A stretch of DNA of 37,903 nt from a virus. Position 1 is the first letter of the stretch; every line of letters begins with the position of its first letter. Where the stretch lies: the IMG/VR virus record IMGVR_UViG_3300006810_000136, positions 1 to 37,903 of that record; one strand, given 5' to 3'. Below the pieces are notes generated by a model. That model did not search any database. It was not told the DNA's origin and was given only the letters and a program-made list of their open reading frames with translations. A program made the translations under genes and the position numbers. Shown in pieces: positions 4,227 to 37,713 of the stretch.

Positions 4227-5152
4227 CAGTCTTGAAATTGAGGCTTAGACAAGAGCCCCTTCATAAACTCAAGGAGTCCCTTATCGTCGCCTTGCTTGAT
4301 GAGCTCTTCCATCATTTCAGATTGGTCTGGGTTAAACACCAGCTCCCCACCTGTAAGCTCGGCTTCCTTCTCTCCGTTCTCCTCGTCAATGACAGCCTTC
4401 TTGTTGGTGTCGTGGTTAAACTCACCCTTGGTCTTGAAGCCTTGATCAGCCATGTATCTCATGCCATCCTTAGCTTGACCTGGGTTCCCCAGATCGAAGT
4501 CCTTGAGAAGAGAGGCAAGAGCTGTAGCCGTCTGAACACCACTTGCGGTTGCAGCAGGTCCAGCAGCTTGCTGTCTTTCCTGAAGATCGAGAAGCTCTCT
4601 TCTACCTTCGTCGGCAGCGGCAGCTCCACGCTCCATGAGCAACTGATCAAGTGCTGATTGGAATCCTTTTTCTTTTTCGGTGAGATCTGCTCTCAGGGCT
4701 TCAGAGGCCGTCTTCATGCCCAAAGCCTTTGCTCTTCGTTCGTCGTCCCCAGCACTAAGTCTCTCAAGAAGGTTTGCTGCACCTGCAGCTGATCTTGGAT
4801 CACCAGACTGAAGCGCAGAAACAATGTCGCTTCTTTGCTCTTGAAGTCTTCTGTCACCAGCCCCCAGCAAGGCCTCTGCAGCCTCCTTTTGAGCCTGAAT
4901 GTAATCCTCACTAGCCTGAGTTACAGCGGGTCTAGCACGCAGCTTCTCAAGCATCTTCTCGTATGACTTTCTGCCTGCTGCTTGTTGCTCAAGGGCAGCT
5001 GCTCTTCTGTCTTCAATGCCAGCCTCAAGGCCCTTTTTTGCTCGGCCCCTTTCTAGGGCGCCTGCCCCGAGTGTCAAGGCTGCTCTACCAAGCTTCTTTC
5101 CTTGGTCTGATTTTAAGAAGTCGAATATCTTATCGAATGGAATATCTGCCAT
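4226..5152 (-). CDS. Internal virion-associated protein, Ala/Glu-rich, 308 aa
   Basis: The first 200 residues are almost wholly helical and rich in Ala, Arg, Glu and Leu (RRAAALEQQA, LLERLSAGDD). A Gly-containing linker follows, then a distinct C-terminal module with FNHDTN, ELTGGELVFNPDQ and a final LLEFMKGLLSKPQF. From memory, a TGGE-x-VFNP motif of this kind recurs in small virion-associated proteins of marine phages, but no function is known to me. The gene opens a three-gene run (308, 640 and more than 762 aa) coupled by stop-start overlap. A TACTTTTG box lies five bases before the ATG. Confidence 0.65.
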   Translation of the reverse strand: MADIPFDKIFDFLKSDQGKKLGRAALTLGAGALERGRAKKGLEAGIEDRRAAALEQQAAGRKSYEKMLEKLRARPAVTQASEDYIQAQKEAAEALLGAGDRRLQEQRSDIVSALQSGDPRSAAGAANLLERLSAGDDERRAKALGMKTASEALRADLTEKEKGFQSALDQLLMERGAAAADEGRRELLDLQERQQAAGPAATASGVQTATALASLLKDFDLGNPGQAKDGMRYMADQGFKTKGEFNHDTNKKAVIDEENGEKEAELTGGELVFNPDQSEMMEELIKQGDDKGLLEFMKGLLSKPQFQD

Positions 5153-12076: not shown

Positions 12077-12843
12077 TATTTATTTTGAGTTTCTTGTACG
12101 GCGTATCCAGAAATCACCTGATCTCTAAGCCTCACGCCAACCATCTTACAGATCTCCGCAATCACCTCGCCTATGTATCTCGCTGGAAGGTCAAAGTTCC
12201 TTGAGTTCGCAACGTCTGGGACAAAGAATCCTTCATTGTCAAGGGCCCCAAATGTAGCAATACGAGGCTTACCGTCATAATCCACATCTCCAATCTTCAC
12301 CCTACCTATAGAGGCGGCGTAAGCGGATGCAGGTTGTCTGTAGTAGGTCATGATGACACTATCCACAGTTGTTGGGAAGATCTCTATGTTCTTTGACACA
12401 AGGGCCACAGGGAAAAGGTCTGTAGGGGCCGAAAGCTTGCTGTTGAGGATGTGAGCCATCTTAGCTGAGTTGTACACCAACTCTGCCTGAACTCTGTCAT
12501 CATCATCAACTCTAATAGATATAAGCTTGCAGAAATCTTCTGGCTTGCTAAATACATTAGAGTCACCACTTGCGGAACCGTCAGAACCCCCAGAAAGGAC
12601 TTCTTCCACGATATATCTTGAGAGGTCGTCTTCAACGCCCCTGTAGGCAGACTCACCTTGAGAGGGGTCCACACCTCTTACCCTAAGGGAATAAGCAGCT
12701 GTAAGCTCTGAGTACATCTCCATGTAGACGTTCTCCTGAGCGATGGCAGCGAAAGAATTGAAGACCTTGGGGGAAATGAATCCTTTCTGGTCTTTGTTTG
12801 CCAAGTCCCTAACGGCGTTGTATACTTCGACTACGCTGATCAT
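12076..12843 (-). CDS. Neck ring/adaptor protein candidate, 255 aa
   Basis: The frame is open further upstream, but its first in-frame ATG is at 12843 (MISVVEVYNA), preceded four bases earlier by a TATATTTG box, so that start is chosen. The protein is helical at the N-terminus (AVRDLANKDQKGFISPKVFN). It then has a beta-rich middle with VIMTYYRQPASA and ends RNFDLPARYIGEVIAEICKMVGVRLRD. The combination of a YYRxP strand, an FDLP segment and a final I-x-GVxLRDxxV helix is typical, from memory, of phage head-tail connector ring proteins near the capsid. It is the first gene after a strong terminator and leads the ring, ring, muzzle run. Confidence 0.6.
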   Translation of the reverse strand: MISVVEVYNAVRDLANKDQKGFISPKVFNSFAAIAQENVYMEMYSELTAAYSLRVRGVDPSQGESAYRGVEDDLSRYIVEEVLSGGSDGSASGDSNVFSKPEDFCKLISIRVDDDDRVQAELVYNSAKMAHILNSKLSAPTDLFPVALVSKNIEIFPTTVDSVIMTYYRQPASAYAASIGRVKIGDVDYDGKPRIATFGALDNEGFFVPDVANSRNFDLPARYIGEVIAEICKMVGVRLRDQVISGYAVQETQNK

Positions 12844-12847
12844 ATCG

Positions 12848-12855
12848 CAAATATA
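12848..12855 (-). promoter_or_regulatory. TATATTTG promoter -7 box, 4 bases before the ATG at 12843
   Basis: This box lies directly downstream of the terminator at 12867-12886 and reads TATATTTG then CGAT then ATG. It matches TAnnTTTG exactly. It would restart transcription for the ring and muzzle genes after the terminator. No TTG element is seen at the usual distance, where the terminator hairpin lies. Confidence 0.5.
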
Positions 12856-12866
12856 CAACAAAGAAA

Positions 12867-12886
12867 AAGGCCCCTTTCGGGGCCTT
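12867..12886 (-). terminator. Intrinsic terminator after the 276-aa gene
   Basis: A perfect 8-base-pair stem, AAGGCCCC with GGGGCCTT, is closed by a GAAA (GNRA) loop on the minus strand and followed by TTTCTTTG. It lies 3 bases beyond the stop at 12890. The opposite strand lacks a comparable U-run, so the direction is leftwards. Confidence 0.9.
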
Positions 12887-12889
12887 CCT

Positions 12890-13720
12890 TTATGCTAGAC
12901 GCTCTAGCCGATCTTCGATGTCAGCTAGTACGGTGGATCCTTTCTCCGTGAGGCAGAACCTCGTCAAAACGTCGGTGGGGTCTTGTCCCACTGGAACTGA
13001 AACAATCTGCGTGTTGGAATCAAACCACTTGCAGGCGCTACGGTCCATTTTAATTATCTGATAATCAGCCGCTTGCTTGAGAATAGCGCGAGTTCTGACT
13101 GTCGGAGAATCAAAGGATTCGATAAATTCTTTTGGTTTGCTCTTGGCGATACGCAACAAGTTGTGGCGGATCTCCGCTGTAGGAGCATTGATGTTCACTT
13201 TGAAGTACAAAGCAACCGCGAACAAATCCGTGATCTCTGTGTCACGAACCATGGCAACTGCATCTGTAACAAGAAACTCCTTTTCGAGTTCCTTCTCAGC
13301 GTCCACCTTCTTGTTCACTTCCTTGAACTTGTTTCCACCGTTGGAAGCGTTGCCAGGGTGAAGCTCCAAGAAGCGACGAAGGTTGGGTTGGTTCTTGTCC
13401 ACAAAGATGCGACCGTTTCGGAAGATCACAGACTTCTTTACAGCGGCGCTTCCCTGCTCATCAGCCCAGATAGAGTTTTCGTTAGGACAGTAGCGAATCT
13501 CGCGAACACTGTCGGTCTCTTTGTCGTACACCGTCTCGCCTTGCTGAGGGAGCATGTATACGATTCCACCCCCACCAATGACTTCGAACTCCTTTCTTTC
13601 GTTAGGGGTTTCGTTGCGTACAATAGGTGGTCTCTTAGTCACCTTCTTCTCTACGACTGGTGCAGCCGTAGCTTCGGTCTTTTTGGGGCGACCTGGAGCC
13701 CGTCTAGTTTGTTGTGTCAT
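12890..13720 (-). CDS. Conserved phage protein of unknown function with AT-hook-like start, 276 aa
   Basis: The N-terminus RRAPGRPKKTEA contains a GRP core flanked by basic residues, as in AT-hooks, followed by a Lys/Pro-rich linker to about residue 40. The central part has FEVIGGGGIVYML, a beta-rich segment, then IFRNGRIFVDKNQPNLRRFLELHPGN in pieces around residues 97-123. The C-terminal half is helical. I recognise the central motif as recurring in phage structural regions, but no activity is known to me. It ends a transcription unit closed by the terminator at 12867-12886. A minor DNA- or capsid-associated role is possible. Confidence 0.65.
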   Translation of the reverse strand: MTQQTRRAPGRPKKTEATAAPVVEKKVTKRPPIVRNETPNERKEFEVIGGGGIVYMLPQQGETVYDKETDSVREIRYCPNENSIWADEQGSAAVKKSVIFRNGRIFVDKNQPNLRRFLELHPGNASNGGNKFKEVNKKVDAEKELEKEFLVTDAVAMVRDTEITDLFAVALYFKVNINAPTAEIRHNLLRIAKSKPKEFIESFDSPTVRTRAILKQAADYQIIKMDRSACKWFDSNTQIVSVPVGQDPTDVLTRFCLTEKGSTVLADIEDRLERLA

Positions 13721-13724
13721 TAAA

Positions 13725-15017
13725 TTAAACTTTGTATAGGTTATTCAAATCAGTTGCTAATTTACTACAAGATGCGGAACCGATGTCTTTTTCGATAACG
13801 CCAAACCTTGCAATATTCCCAATAAAGGCTGTCGTGGCCGCAATGTCAGCCACAGTTCCAAGCCTTTCTATCTTGAGATCTCCGTCAGTTCTGAAGTCTG
13901 TTGTTGTTGTAGGCTTGTATGGTATGGAGGCAGGGTCGAGGGTGGGTATAAATCCAACCAAGTCTCCATCTTTGTTGTACATGTACAGGTTTGATTCAGA
14001 ATCTCTTCTGATTACAAACACCTGAAAAAGCTGCTGTTCTTCAGCATCATTAATTGGATAGGTGTAGCTAACCGTTCCGTTTTCATCGTTGTCTACGTCA
14101 GTGTTAGGAAAGTCCCCAAACCTATCATGGTGCCTGGTCACAAACCTGCCAAACGCAGATGACCTCATCTTGGTGATTGCACCATTTGAATCCGTCAAGG
14201 TCTTTCCAATAGTTGGTCCAAAACACTCCCCGTCACCATCCGAGTAGATTGCATGGGCCCTCTCAGACTGGTAAACAACGTAAAGAGTGTAGTCGTTAGC
14301 AACAGTAAGAGTAGGGATGGTGAAGTTATCTGAACCAGTAAATCGAGCTGACCTTTTTGACAGATGGTCTGTAACGTCAGCGACACTAGGAGCCCCAGTA
14401 TTATGCCCAATATCATAGGTATTACCGCCTGTGCCGTCATTAGCCCACGAGTTTATCTCATGACCTACAGTCTTTGATTCCAGTTCAGTATGATTGTAAT
14501 CTACGATAGGCTTGTTCTCTGAAATGCCGAAGTCAATGCCAGCAATGGTTGTTGACACTACGTCTGCCCCCACCGTACCAGTACTTCCGATAAAGCTCTG
14601 TGTGCTGGCCTCACCAGTAATCCTTTTTGTGGGGTTGATGTGAATCTTAGATTCAATCTTGCTGTCGTAAGACACAGGAGAGAACGTAGAGGTTTGATCC
14701 ACTGCATCGAACTTCATCACAGACTCGCCACCCTGACGAGAGATGAATGCGAGGATAGACTCGATGAGGGCTACCTCCTTGCCGATCTCACAAGGAATCT
14801 TTACTGAGGTTTTCTCAAGGGACTCACCGTCTGTGAGGTTGCTCTCTTCGTACTTAGTAGCCCCATTGAAGGAGAGTACGATATGGCCCTTACCCGCGCT
14901 TGCAAACGCTAGGCTGTCGGCAGGAAGAGCGAGAACACTAAGGCCTTGGCCACTGTCTGATGCAGTGACGCTTGAGGCGTTGATCTCTTCCTTTCTAAAT
15001 AAGAAAAACTTTTTCAT
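13725..15017 (-). CDS. Capsid/virion-associated protein with C-terminal LamG-like domain, 430 aa
   Basis: The first 120 residues form a compact module starting MKKFFLFRKEEINAS, with VLALPADSLAF, IVLSFNGATKYEESNLTDGE and MKFDAVDQTSTF. From memory, this N-terminal module recurs in phage proteins coded next to the capsid gene. Residues from about 195 onward look like a concanavalin/LamG jelly roll: alternating strands, RSARFTGSDNFTIP, YTLYVVYQSE, then a final IARFGVIEKD. That suggests glycan binding on the virion surface. The gene follows a strong terminator at 15033-15059, so it needs its own promoter or read-through. The lectin call is by pattern only. Confidence 0.6.
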   Translation of the reverse strand: MKKFFLFRKEEINASSVTASDSGQGLSVLALPADSLAFASAGKGHIVLSFNGATKYEESNLTDGESLEKTSVKIPCEIGKEVALIESILAFISRQGGESVMKFDAVDQTSTFSPVSYDSKIESKIHINPTKRITGEASTQSFIGSTGTVGADVVSTTIAGIDFGISENKPIVDYNHTELESKTVGHEINSWANDGTGGNTYDIGHNTGAPSVADVTDHLSKRSARFTGSDNFTIPTLTVANDYTLYVVYQSERAHAIYSDGDGECFGPTIGKTLTDSNGAITKMRSSAFGRFVTRHHDRFGDFPNTDVDNDENGTVSYTYPINDAEEQQLFQVFVIRRDSESNLYMYNKDGDLVGFIPTLDPASIPYKPTTTTDFRTDGDLKIERLGTVADIAATTAFIGNIARFGVIEKDIGSASCSKLATDLNNLYKV

Positions 15018-28303: not shown

Positions 28304-28317
28304 TTTATTGAATTTAG

Positions 28318-28391
28318 TACACCTGCAGGGACTCGAACCCCGAACCTGCGCATTAGAAGTGCGCTGCTCTATCCTGTTGAGCTACAGGTGC
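28318..28391 (-). tRNA. tRNA-Arg (UCU)
   Basis: A full 74-base cloverleaf on the minus strand. The acceptor stem GCACCTG pairs with CAGGTGT (first pair a G-U wobble), and the discriminator is A. The D stem is GCTC/GAGC. The anticodon stem GCGCA/TGCGC has loop CTTCTAA giving anticodon TCT. The T stem carries TTCGAGT. The CCA end is not encoded. It decodes AGA, a common Arg codon in many of the leftward genes. Confidence 0.92.
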
Positions 28392-28637: not shown

Positions 28638-28645
28638 ATAAATTG

Positions 28646-28719
28646 TTGGGGCGGCGGGACTTGAACCCGCGACTTCCTGTGTATAAGACAGACGCTCTAA
28701 CCAACTGAACTACGCCCCA
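28646..28719 (-). tRNA. tRNA-Ile (UAU)
   Basis: A 74-base cloverleaf on the minus strand. The acceptor TGGGGCG pairs with CGCCCCA, with discriminator A. The D stem is GTTC/GAGC. The anticodon stem TCTGT/ACAGG has loop CTTATAC giving anticodon TAT. The T stem is GCGGG/CCCGC with loop TTCAAGT. No encoded CCA. It reads the rare Ile codon AUA. Confidence 0.9.
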
Positions 28720-35396: not shown

Positions 35397-35732
35397 GTCT
35401 AGATACAACTATTCTCGCGCCATAAAGAATAAGGATTCATCTGCGTACACGCAAAAAAAACATCTTTGAGTGCTTTCTTTAATCTGAATCGCTTCGATGC
35501 CGTAAAGGTATAAAGGAATTTTTTGAAAGTCAATAGTCTAGTAACACTTTAAGACAAGGCTTCTAAGTTGCTGTAAACGAAAGGCTTAGAGGTTTTCGTG
35601 TGAAATTGTTTCTGAAGGCAATGACCCAAGATCACGTCGAAAAAAGAGGGGAGTAACATATACCGTGGGGATTATATATACTTACACACGCCCGACTGCA
35701 CGAACCGAAACGGATTCAGCAACCCCACCCCC

Positions 35733-36027
35733 CTACTATCTTCGATAGTAGCGCAAATACTTTTCAGCTTTTACCTACTGACTTTCAGTCAGTTAGGTAG
35801 CTTTGGTTCTACCACTGATGCAAGACCTGCGAAGCTTGCGCCGTCTCCTGAGCGGTGGGACAATCCCTCCCAAACTCCTCTTACTGCCTTACCCCTTCCC
35901 CTCTTAGGGGAAACATTCAAGCCGATTTGGTCGGCCTTCACGATGGCTAACCTACGGAGATAACAAGTTATCTCTCAGTGCGTTAGCAGCCTCGACTTCC
36001 ACTACTACTACCGAAGGTAGTGTAGTG
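35733..36027 (+). ncRNA. Hairpin-rich non-coding segment (possible structured RNA or ssDNA)
   Basis: Hairpins read on the plus strand: 35733-35751 (8 bp, loop TTC), 35772-35799 (about 12 bp with one bulge, loop TTC), 35820-35839 (5 bp), 35896-35912 (7 bp, loop CTT), 35921-35935 (5 bp), 35957-35974 (8 bp) nested within 35946-35987 (6 bp outer stem), and 36000-36027 (12 bp with one bulge, loop GAA). They are too many and too regular to be accidental. No known RNA family was recognised. Loops are TTC/CTT up to about 35.91 kb and GAA after 36.0 kb. Confidence 0.5.
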
Positions 36028-36043
36028 AGGACACTGAAAGGTA

Positions 36044-36098
36044 GAGATATGTATTAGAATGAAAGAAACCTTTAGGTTTCATTCTAATACATTATCTC
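36044..36098. repeat. Long inverted repeat before the first rightward gene
   Basis: Arms GAGATA-TGTATTAGAAT... and ...ATTCTAATACA-TTATCTC pair over roughly 24 bases with one or two bulges. An inner GAAACC/GGTTTC stem closes the top. The repeat ends nine bases before the ATG at 36107. An ATG at 36059 lies within the stem, so it is not taken as the gene start. Confidence 0.8.
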
Positions 36099-36106
36099 AT
36101 AAACCG

Positions 36107-36679
36107 ATGAAAAACTTCAACTTCTCCGATTGCCGTAAGGCAACCAACCAAGCCATCTTCCGTCCAACTGCGGCCCGCAAAGCAGAAGCTGTAAAGCTTC
36201 TGACTGAGGCCTTGGACTTCATCTCCAACCTCGAAGAGGTTGCCGACAAGCCTTCGAAGAAGGCTGGCAAGAAGCGTCGTCGTAAGACGACGAAGAAGGC
36301 CACTCCACAGCAACGAGTTGCTGACCGTCAAGAGAAAGCCTTCCATGGGAAGGCTGACAGCCCAGTCAAGCCTTCGAAGAAGGCTAAGACAGCTTCAGTA
36401 GAAGCTGCAAGAGAGTCAGCTAAAGCTGTCTCGGTGGCCACAGGAGCCGCTGCTAAAGCAGCGAAGAAAGCTCAGCTGAAAGCTGAGGCTGAGGCCGCTG
36501 AAGCACCGAAGGTGACTAAGCCGAAGGCTAAGGCTCAACCGAAGGTTGACGAGTCAAGAGTAGCTTCCTTGGAAGCTAAGATTGAGGCTCTCACCGCAGT
36601 GCTCGCCCTGCACATGGAGTCTTCGACTCAGCCCTCAGCTAACGAAGTTAGCTTGGACGAACTCCCCTTCGAGCTCTAA
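36107..36679 (+). CDS. Lys/Ala-rich histone-H1-like protein encoded by a hairpin-packed sequence, 190 aa
   Basis: The ATG at 36107 follows the long inverted repeat. The product begins MKNFNFSDCRKATNQAIFRP, has a helical acidic stretch (AVKLLTEALDFISNLEEVA), then about 100 residues of Lys/Ala/Pro/Ser repeats (KPSKKAGKKRRRKTTKKA, AAKAAKKAQLKAEAEAAEA) like histone H1 tails. A short coiled coil follows (SRVASLEAKIEALTAVLAL) and an acidic end SLDELPFEL, similar to the tip of SSB. It probably binds DNA. At nucleotide level it contains about 19 perfect hairpins, of which the last holds the stop codon. The gene heads the rightward operon. Confidence 0.6.
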   Translation: MKNFNFSDCRKATNQAIFRPTAARKAEAVKLLTEALDFISNLEEVADKPSKKAGKKRRRKTTKKATPQQRVADRQEKAFHGKADSPVKPSKKAKTASVEAARESAKAVSVATGAAAKAAKKAQLKAEAEAAEAPKVTKPKAKAQPKVDESRVASLEAKIEALTAVLALHMESSTQPSANEVSLDELPFEL

Positions 36680-36693
36680 TCCTTTAGGATTAG
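36130..36693 (+). other. Hairpin array within the first rightward gene
   Basis: Perfect stems of 4-8 bp with 2-5 base loops occur at 36130-36143, 36183-36202, 36226-36242, 36249-36265, 36275-36292, 36308-36323, 36337-36355, 36369-36385, 36390-36407, 36413-36432 (one internal mismatch), 36448-36463, 36471-36487, 36504-36514, 36519-36529, 36535-36549, 36561-36578, 36617-36629, 36637-36653 and 36676-36693. Eight loops are GAA, three are GTAA. The units at 36249 and 36369 are identical. The hairpins fall in different reading phases, so they are not a by-product of one peptide repeat. Confidence 0.85.
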
Positions 36694-36711
36694 TTTAATT
36701 GATAACCCTTA

Positions 36712-36953
36712 ATTCATTGAAAATGAATCACTTAGTTTCTGACCTTGATATCGAAGATATCAGCCAAATCACTGCTTCCTACCCGCAGGGCACGACGCTC
36801 GACCATGCGACCTTCAGCGAAGCTGTCGACTTTCTTGACTCCTTCGTTGATAACGAAGAGGACGGCGACAAACTCCGAATGCTGTGGGACTTGCAAGGTC
36901 TGAAAGACCTCCTGCGTGACGCAACAGCAGGCGCTGTGGAGATTACCATCTCC
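36712..36953 (+). other. Hairpin array across the start and body of the second rightward gene
   Basis: Perfect hairpins at 36712-36728 (7 bp, loop GAA, containing the ATG at 36723), 36746-36762 (7 bp, GAA), 36815-36825 (4 bp, GAA), 36842-36858 (7 bp, GAT), 36896-36910 (6 bp, GAA), 36913-36923 (4 bp, TGA), 36924-36937 (5 bp, AGGC) and 36938-36953 (6 bp, TACC). The last four are almost contiguous. The encoded protein is not low-complexity here, so protein repeats cannot explain them. Confidence 0.85.
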
Positions 36954-36995
36954 CGAAGCTTGCTTGCCCTTGGAAGCGGTTGCTCCATCGGCTAA
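36723..36995 (+). CDS. Small acidic protein of unknown function, 90 aa
   Basis: The ATG at 36723 is used because it falls in the same position relative to a hairpin as expected of this operon; an ATG at 36699 would add eight residues. The product starts MNHLVSDLDIEDISQITASY, is acidic and helical (AVDFLDSFVDNEEDGDKLRM, WDLQGLKDLLRDAT), and ends in Gly/Ser residues. No family is recognised. Acidic small early proteins of phages often inhibit host factors, but nothing here proves that. Confidence 0.5.
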   Translation: MNHLVSDLDIEDISQITASYPQGTTLDHATFSEAVDFLDSFVDNEEDGDKLRMLWDLQGLKDLLRDATAGAVEITISRSLLALGSGCSIG

Positions 36996-37004
36996 CCTCT
37001 TAGA

Positions 37005-37059
37005 GTATCTTGATATATACACTCTCTTCATTTATGAAGAGTGTATATATCTTAGATAC
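37005..37059. repeat. Long inverted repeat between the second and third rightward genes
   Basis: GTATCT, then GATATATACACT and CTTCAT on the left pair with ATGAAG, AGTGTATATATC and AGATAC on the right, with small bulges, giving a stem of about 24 base pairs around a TT loop. It lies in the 108-base gap 36996-37103. There is no U-run of terminator type, so an mRNA-processing or DNA-structure role is as likely as termination. Confidence 0.8.
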
Positions 37060-37103: not shown

Positions 37104-37250
37104 ATGCAGACATTTGCAGCTACCCGCCGTCAGCTTATCGCTGACCTCCTCGACCTTCACCTCTCCTTCGACGCAGTGCGTGCCACCTCCGAGTGGGACG
37201 AACTCACCTGCCTTGAGCAGATGACCTTGGAGGACTTGATTGAGATGTAA
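37104..37250 (+). CDS. Small acidic protein, 48 aa
   Basis: ATG at 37104, TAA at 37248-37250. The product MQTFAATRRQLIADLLDLHL... is helical, Leu/Asp/Glu-rich and acidic towards the end (LEQMTLEDLIEM). It has no recognised domain. A 6-bp hairpin (37129-37145) lies inside it and the stop codon lies in an 8-bp hairpin (37239-37257). The hammerhead ribozyme begins 12 bases downstream. Confidence 0.55.
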   Translation: MQTFAATRRQLIADLLDLHLSFDAVRATSEWDELTCLEQMTLEDLIEM

Positions 37251-37261: not shown

Positions 37262-37314
37262 GGTACACTGATGAGCCTTGAGTAGGCGAAACACCCCCTT
37301 GGGGTGTCTGTATC
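37262..37314 (+). ncRNA. Hammerhead ribozyme (type I)
   Basis: All parts of the hammerhead are present in order. Stem I is GGTACA (37262-37267) with TGTATC (37309-37314), 6 bp including one G-U. Core CTGATGA spans 37268-37274. Stem II is GCCT/AGGC (37275-37278 and 37284-37287) with a 5-base loop. Core GAA follows at 37288-37290. Stem III is ACACCCC (37291-37297) with GGGGTGT (37301-37307), beginning with the required A-U pair and capped by CTT. The cleavage-site C is at 37308. Predicted cleavage is between 37308 and 37309. It lies between the 48-aa and 125-aa genes and would cut their shared message 27 bases before the ATG at 37336. Stem I is the open stem, hence type I. Confidence 0.88.
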
Positions 37315-37335
37315 AAACTTCAAACTTCATCTACG

Positions 37336-37713
37336 ATGACAATCAAATCCTTATACTTCCTCGTTCAAGAGAGCGAGGGCTTCAGCGTCCGAGCCAACGA
37401 CCTCCTCACCTATGCGGCCAAAGAGGGCTACGCAGTCGGTGGTGCAGAGCCAGCGGTGGGCGTGTTCAAGTGCAAGAACGACGACCTTTCGTTCCGAATC
37501 TTCAACAGAGAAATCAACAGACTTCAGTCGGTGGTGACTGACCCCAACCAAGTCATAGGTGCGTGGGTAGACGTGGTCGAAGACCCCAAGGGGGTGGCCT
37601 ACCTCGAACTCTCTGACGTAGTCAAGTCGAAGCAAGTGGCTCTCGAACTTGCCCGAGCACGTGGTGAGAAAGCCATCTACGATTTCGCTAACTCTGAATC
37701 CATCTACCTGTGA
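37336..37713 (+). CDS. Hypothetical early protein, 125 aa
   Basis: The product begins MTIKSLYFLVQESEGFSVRA, contains DLLTYAAKEGYAVGGAEPAV and FKCKNDDLSFRIFNREI, then a beta segment (VIGAWVDVVEDPKGVAYLEL), and ends with helix and NSESIYL. I recognise no family. Unlike the genes to its left it has few hairpins. It follows the ribozyme, so its mRNA probably begins with a 5'-hydroxyl end at 37309. Codons favour C-ending forms (CTC, GAC, AAC), unlike the leftward block. Confidence 0.6.
   Translation: MTIKSLYFLVQESEGFSVRANDLLTYAAKEGYAVGGAEPAVGVFKCKNDDLSFRIFNREINRLQSVVTDPNQVIGAWVDVVEDPKGVAYLELSDVVKSKQVALELARARGEKAIYDFANSESIYL

Follow-up and report, generated by a model that had tools for sequence, protein, structure and literature searches.

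The early promoters of phage N4 are hairpins that lie in the early region, near the genome end. Conjugative plasmids have structured DNA, with single-stranded promoters of the Frpo type, in the leading region that enters the cell first, and phage T5 has inverted repeats near its leading genome end, in the first-step-transfer stop region. Mobile palindromes, such as the Rickettsia palindromic elements, place inverted repeats within protein-coding genes. Most known cases of overlapping constraint on coding sequence come from RNA structure. The N4 promoter hairpins are extruded by negative supercoiling; their stem has at most 7 bp, and their loop, of three bases including a sheared G-A pair, is closed by C-G (PMC4496689). 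Quasipalindrome correction turns imperfect inverted repeats into perfect ones by template switching (PMC3820800). Finally, a survey published in 2026 covered the inverted repeats of 118,019 genomes with a minimum arm length of 10 bp (PMC13155455), so that the stems described below would escape it.

The locus compared here with these systems was found in an IMG/VR record of 37.9 kb, whose source virus is a marine flavobacterial podophage. The window, which is the whole stretch of DNA analyzed, is 37,903 nucleotides long. At 35733–36953 it contains an array of about 25 perfect minihairpins that stands out in a hairpin scan, in codon shuffles, in its conservation and in its DNA-type features. We give even odds to the reading that the array is a selected, cis-acting string of about 25 DNA minihairpins that acts at the DNA level and is located at the genome end.

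Similar to the N4 promoters, the array hairpins are short, with a stem mode of 7 bp and often with GNA-type triloops and C-G closing pairs, and they belong to the early region of a podophage genome. Whereas N4 has three hairpins of conserved sequence, the array has about 25, most of them within genes, whose stems are arbitrary, and no conserved bases are found beside a fixed start site. This comparison bears on the possibility that the hairpins are sites read by an enzyme, like the promoters of the N4 virion RNA polymerase or the starts of a single-strand primase/polymerase. Although the hairpins are of the same physical type as the N4 early promoters, neither their stems nor their flanks have a conserved sequence, and about 20 such sites would be in coding sequence with their loops in both orientations. 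Moreover, a family search that lacked a working positive control found no T7/N4-type polymerase among 15 genomes. The giant virion protein had no match in Pfam, PHROG or PDB and no conserved polymerase-like region. We regard a role as enzyme sites as quite improbable.

The array shares with conjugative plasmids the position of structured DNA in the part of the element that probably enters first; plasmid DNA, however, enters single-stranded, and its promoters are few and sequence-conserved. The T5 region is non-coding, repeat-rich and sequence-specific and has no covarying minihairpins in genes. Elements of the Rickettsia and REP types are repeat families inserted as units, whereas the stems of the array share no sequence. 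Quasipalindrome correction is described as sporadic mutations and not as a conserved 1-kb array with size-limited, synonymously constrained stems. No described system is known to have the design of this array. The sequence-only reading had likewise named none, in agreement with the openly accessible literature that was searched.

Extent of the array in the window and in related phages

Structural genes of the window are directed leftward from 35408 and early genes rightward from ~36107. The terminase (40–49% identity) and the portal link the window to the Flavobacterium elemo phages, Maribacter phage Panino and isolate MW202828, and relatives of the window code for primase-helicase, ribonucleotide reductase and an exonuclease VIII-like protein. 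A tRNA-Arg(TCT) at 28317–28391 and a tRNA-Ile(TAT) at 28645–28719 are both in the structural half. The first four early genes are all on the plus strand. Gene 1 (36107–36679) encodes a basic, Lys/Ala-rich protein of 190 amino acid residues including the initiator Met, which had no match in PHROG or Pfam. Its predicted helical N terminus, disordered middle part and C-terminal coiled coil come with a structure model of low confidence (pLDDT 69, pTM 0.26). Gene 2 (36723–36995, 90 residues) is unrelated to gene 1, and is followed by gene 3 (37104–37250, 48 residues) and, past the array, gene 4 (37336–37713, 125 residues).

The window was scanned for non-overlapping hairpins with perfect stems and loops of 2–4 bases. 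For 36130–36953, the sequence-only reading had reported about 27 hairpins, about 16 of them with perfect stems of at least 7 bp. The scan found exactly 16 such stems in this span and 19 hairpins with stems of at least 6 bp; the count of 27 includes weaker stems. The hairpins are therefore real, but the earlier coordinates understate the feature, which extends from ~35733 to ~37000. As also proposed earlier, hairpins are present in the flanking non-coding DNA, the first at 35733, and the array loops occupy all codon phases. Stems of at least 7 bp reached 18 per kb in 36000–37000 versus ~0.3 per kb across the other 35 kb, and nothing comparable to the array was found upstream of 35674 in the window.

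Six array hairpins precede gene 1, at 35733–35751, 35777–35793, 35896–35912, 35957–35974, 36007–36021 and 36065–36080. The coding sequence of gene 1 holds 13 perfect hairpins, located at 36183–36202, 36226–36242, 36249–36265, 36275–36292, 36308–36323, 36337–36355, 36369–36385, 36390–36407, 36448–36463, 36471–36487, 36535–36549, 36561–36578 and 36637–36653. These are followed by hairpins at 36676–36693 and 36712–36728, the latter containing the start codon of gene 2, and by four within gene 2, at 36746–36762, 36842–36858, 36896–36910 and 36938–36953. Start codons of several early genes are within such a minihairpin (36712–36728 and 37328–37340 in the window; L009, L012, L013, L016 and others among the relatives), which reads TTCATC-tac-GATGAA or a variant thereof and in which the ATG pairs with a CAT upstream of it. 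Two long hairpins were also found. One is bulged, has more than 20 bp, covaries and is located just before gene 1 (36044–36098), and the other is perfect and located between genes 2 and 3 (37012–37051); both may be RNA-processing sites.

Gene 1 had 12 stems of at least 7 bp, whereas 500 codon-preserving shuffles gave 0.52 ± 0.74 with a maximum of 4. For gene 2, the numbers were 2 versus 0.2. Hairpins were not enriched in gene 3, and its stem count, like those of gene 4, the capsid gene and terL, was at the level of codon shuffles, with 0 perfect hairpins in gene 4. Failure of the shuffles to reproduce the hairpins spares the claim one of the refutations named in the earlier reading, and it rules out peptide repeats, as that reading had argued, or codon bias as the cause of the array. 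Lys/Ala/Ser-rich proteins would raise the frequency of complementary codons, which is the point in favor of chance. The array, however, is also found in a gene for an acidic protein (L173). A repeat family or insertion as the cause can also be rejected, given that the stems of the array share no sequence and arise by substitution. Furthermore, an assembly artefact would have to recur in dozens of independent assemblies. It is thus very hard to credit the array to chance, to repeats in the peptides, to a family of mobile palindromic repeats or to an artefact of assembly.

Searches with genes 1 and 2 plus a conserved upstream element, SGTGGGGATTATATRTRY, recovered dozens of relatives. The element occurs once per genome and is at 35664–35681 on the plus strand of the window. 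The array was present in some 30 related IMG/VR phages, represented by dozens of independent assemblies, and only once per genome in those that are near-complete. Stem density is 0.38 per kb upstream of the element, where the arrays start, versus ~10–25 per kb downstream of it; it decays by ~1.2 kb from the element, and its maximum is not at the very tip. Arrays are kept where the downstream gene encodes a different Lys-rich protein (L143, L175) or the acidic protein of L173. Thus, the array belongs to the place and not to the protein. The arrays of a divergent clade (L020, L025–L031) were weaker and had shorter stems. Lineages L149, L154, L163 and L164 have the same element and the same cut, described below, without an array, so the array is not essential. 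The cultured relatives, elemo phage and Panino, had no array in the parts examined. In MW202828 (L249), 12746–14620 contains copies of an identical 16-bp palindrome, GTGTCGTTAACGACAC, which are placed ahead of successive early genes, with one copy within a gene. This series looks like an operator series and is different from the array.

Paired changes and the nature of the hairpins

In aligned hairpins of the relatives, both arms changed together, in coding and non-coding parts alike, so that homologs do show the paired changes on which the earlier reading had depended. In the leader of close relatives, paired changes outnumbered or equaled one-sided changes. The peptide KAFHGKAD was coded with or without a hairpin via synonymous codons in different phages, and homologs without hairpins were aligned gap-free with those bearing them, which together indicate that hairpins arise by substitution in place and not by insertion. 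Fourfold-degenerate sites of gene 1 differed in 30% of the comparisons in stems, 52% in unpaired positions and 50% in loops, where the state of each site was taken from one sequence only, given that conditioning on both exaggerates the contrast. Synonymous constraint in the stems and its lack in the loops favor selection on the array.

The paired changes are also what would be expected if the array had little or no function and resulted from a copying ratchet, in which the genome end is repeatedly resected, becomes single-stranded and folds on itself, so that inverted repeats arisen by chance are made perfect by template switching, as in quasipalindrome correction. The location of the array at the end, its decay with distance and the exonuclease VIII-like protein encoded by these phages are all consistent with such copying, as are the few one-sided intermediates and many transversions that accompany the paired changes in close relatives. 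Templating, however, leaves the sharp limit of the stems at 6–9 bp unexplained. Synonymous sites are slower in stems while loops are unconstrained, although arm-to-arm correction could also slow stems. Loops swapped for their reverse complement point to copying as well, but they are not clearly beyond what loop frequencies predict: 12 of 37 fully changed loops were exact inversions, which is near that expectation. Finally, contig L003 is at 4410–5060 an inverted dimer, in which two copies of the array end are joined head to head, centered on the array hairpin TTAATACTAACTAGTTAGTATTAA. Fold-back at array hairpins can therefore occur, be it in the cell or in the course of amplification or assembly; as evidence for a ratchet, L003 is weakened by the possibility that it is an assembly or amplification chimera. 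We consider the copying ratchet unlikely. If it were true, the array would strongly exemplify how mutation can drive the formation of palindromes in nature.

Selection could instead act on RNA, with the first early transcript armored by hairpins, for example against ribonucleases or an RNA-targeting defence, and a hammerhead ribozyme setting its 3′ end. The array overlaps the first early genes, and the minimum free energy of gene 1 had a z of -7.3. The long hairpins at gene boundaries and the start codons within hairpins also fit a role in RNA. Moreover, a hammerhead is found 1270–1675 nt from the element in many phages. The candidate of the window is at 37262–37314 on the plus strand, downstream of the array, with predicted cleavage after 37308, and scored 28.8 bits against RAGATH-1-hammerhead, which is under the Rfam gathering score. 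The hammerheads of relatives comprise 40–49 distinct covarying sequences with the full CUGANGA...GAAA core, three stems and a UH cleavage site. One to three RAGATH-1-like hammerheads per phage were observed in the early region, beside small early genes, in L007, L009, L014, L015, L020, L027, L029, L032 and others besides the window. An Rfam search of the array itself gave no match, and the sub-threshold hammerhead and long-hairpin look-alikes were found only outside it.

In sense RNA, G-U is the imperfection expected to be favored. Among array stems with one mismatch, 13 had G-U and 15 had A-C, and alignment counts agree with these numbers. Genuine RNA of the same region, however, does have a G-U preference: 40 distinct hammerhead ribozymes of the same phages, used as a control, had 36 G-U and 0 A-C among 598 pairs. 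The difference between 13:15 and 36:0 is significant (Fisher p ~1e-11), with most of the ribozyme G-U pairs at one stem position, so that the number in the control reflects how many sequences there are more than how many independent events took place. The array loops were mostly of three bases, with few tetraloops and no UUCG, which also argues against RNA. Triloops of GNA or its reverse complement made up 133 of 244 (55%) in arrays versus 18 of 112 (16%) in background hairpins. The enrichment of both GNA and its complement, the latter of no benefit to RNA, means that there is no strict strand preference. A pyrimidine-purine closing pair was found in 371 of 397 array stems (93%) versus 207 of 396 in the background (52%), and the commonest closing pair plus loop was C-gaa-G. 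Stem length had a mode of 7 bp and a sharp limit at 6–9 bp, with only 2 of 397 stems reaching 10 bp or more, and this cap at ~9 bp also counts against selection on RNA. GNA loops on C-G pairs form extraordinarily stable, nuclease-resistant DNA minihairpins (PMC4686876). Hence the lack of a wobble preference, the DNA-type loops and closing pairs and the lack of a strict strand preference favor DNA over sense RNA. RNA-level selection is in our view rather doubtful. Among the options of RNA structure, single-stranded DNA structure and copying that the earlier reading had left side by side, DNA under selection is thus favored and sense RNA disfavored, while copying keeps a place.

The conserved element and the probable genome end

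Several relatives indicate where the DNA molecule ends. Contigs L140, L145, L150, L163, L188 and L195, from different metagenomes, end exactly after GG(A)AC at the junction of GG(A)AC and AATC, which is ~180–205 nt past the element; L180 ends one base further and L030 begins exactly at AATC. In addition, G016, the contig of L163 (61,030 bp), begins inside the element at the junction of GATT and ATATATAC and ends at GGGGAC, with a 169-bp direct repeat at both ends whose copies differ by five mismatches. A pattern scan for left-end contigs gave no further evidence of termini among the matches listed. By homology with G016, the left genome end of the window is probably within the element, between GTGGGGATT and ATATATAC, after 35673. 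A putative direct terminal repeat of 188 bp would extend from 35674 to 35861, at the conserved cut between GGGAC and AATC, and contains the hairpins 35733–35751 and 35777–35793. The same sequence at both ends, as in the termini of T7 and N4, was seen in G016, the one contig with the full terminal repeat; this contig belongs to an array-less lineage, and the repeat was transferred to the window by homology. The simplest reading is a linear genome of the T7/N4 style with short direct terminal repeats, where assemblers join or break.

These contig ends strongly support that the element marks the physical genome end. The element is likely to be the recognition and cut site of the terminase. A promoter role is possible for it, but the probable genome end inside the element makes a role in packaging likelier. 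Against a role as early promoter, no host-type promoter was found at the element. A Bacteroidota-type promoter, TTGACTTTT...TATAACTTTG, was observed ~130 nt left of the element (L002, L133, L148, L171, L173, L194; ~35510–35545 in the window); it points leftward into the structural genes, and the element has none that points rightward. Promoters of the host type come after the array in L143, L151, L159 and L175. A replication origin at the array is not supported: purine skew turns at the element and GC skew 5–9 kb downstream, and gene direction confounds both.

The array is therefore probably the first ~1.3 kb from the left genome end. This location was missing from the sequence-only interpretation and alters how the hairpins are read. 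The right-hand copy of the terminal repeat puts the probable genome end between the element and gene 1, which is a further point against a role in RNA. On the other hand, the other genome end has only the 2–3 hairpins of the terminal repeat, which speaks against an explanation by genome ends, and the array coincides with the first early transcription unit, as a role in RNA would also predict.

A proposed role at the probable entering end

Tentatively, we suggest that the array is a new genome-end element, in which genes evolved as a string of minihairpins that lets the leading injected end fold on itself in the cell. About 25 minihairpins, with stems of 6–9 bp and loops of 2–4 bases, would be distributed over approximately the first 1.3 kb of the linear phage genome, in non-coding DNA and also in the first genes, into which they would be written through the choice of synonymous and matched codons. 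The early genes located there suggest that this end is the first to enter the cell. Relaxed duplex DNA does not form hairpins of its own accord, so this reading requires DNA that is unwound or supercoiled. Once the leading end is unwound, resected by an exonuclease or negatively supercoiled, either strand could snap into compact nuclease-resistant hairpins. The folded hairpins would then shield and structure the entering end until circularization or recombination; alternatively, the folded end could serve for recognition as folded DNA. Among several putative roles, shielding of the entering end appears to be the likeliest.

If confirmed, a kilobase of phage DNA, genes included, would be selected to fold as DNA. 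It would also offer a direct handle on the state of phage DNA ends after entry, with respect to nucleases, supercoiling and single-strandedness. The phages concerned are widespread marine flavobacterial phages, and their arrays would then amount to a library from nature, with hundreds of different minihairpins shaped by evolution.
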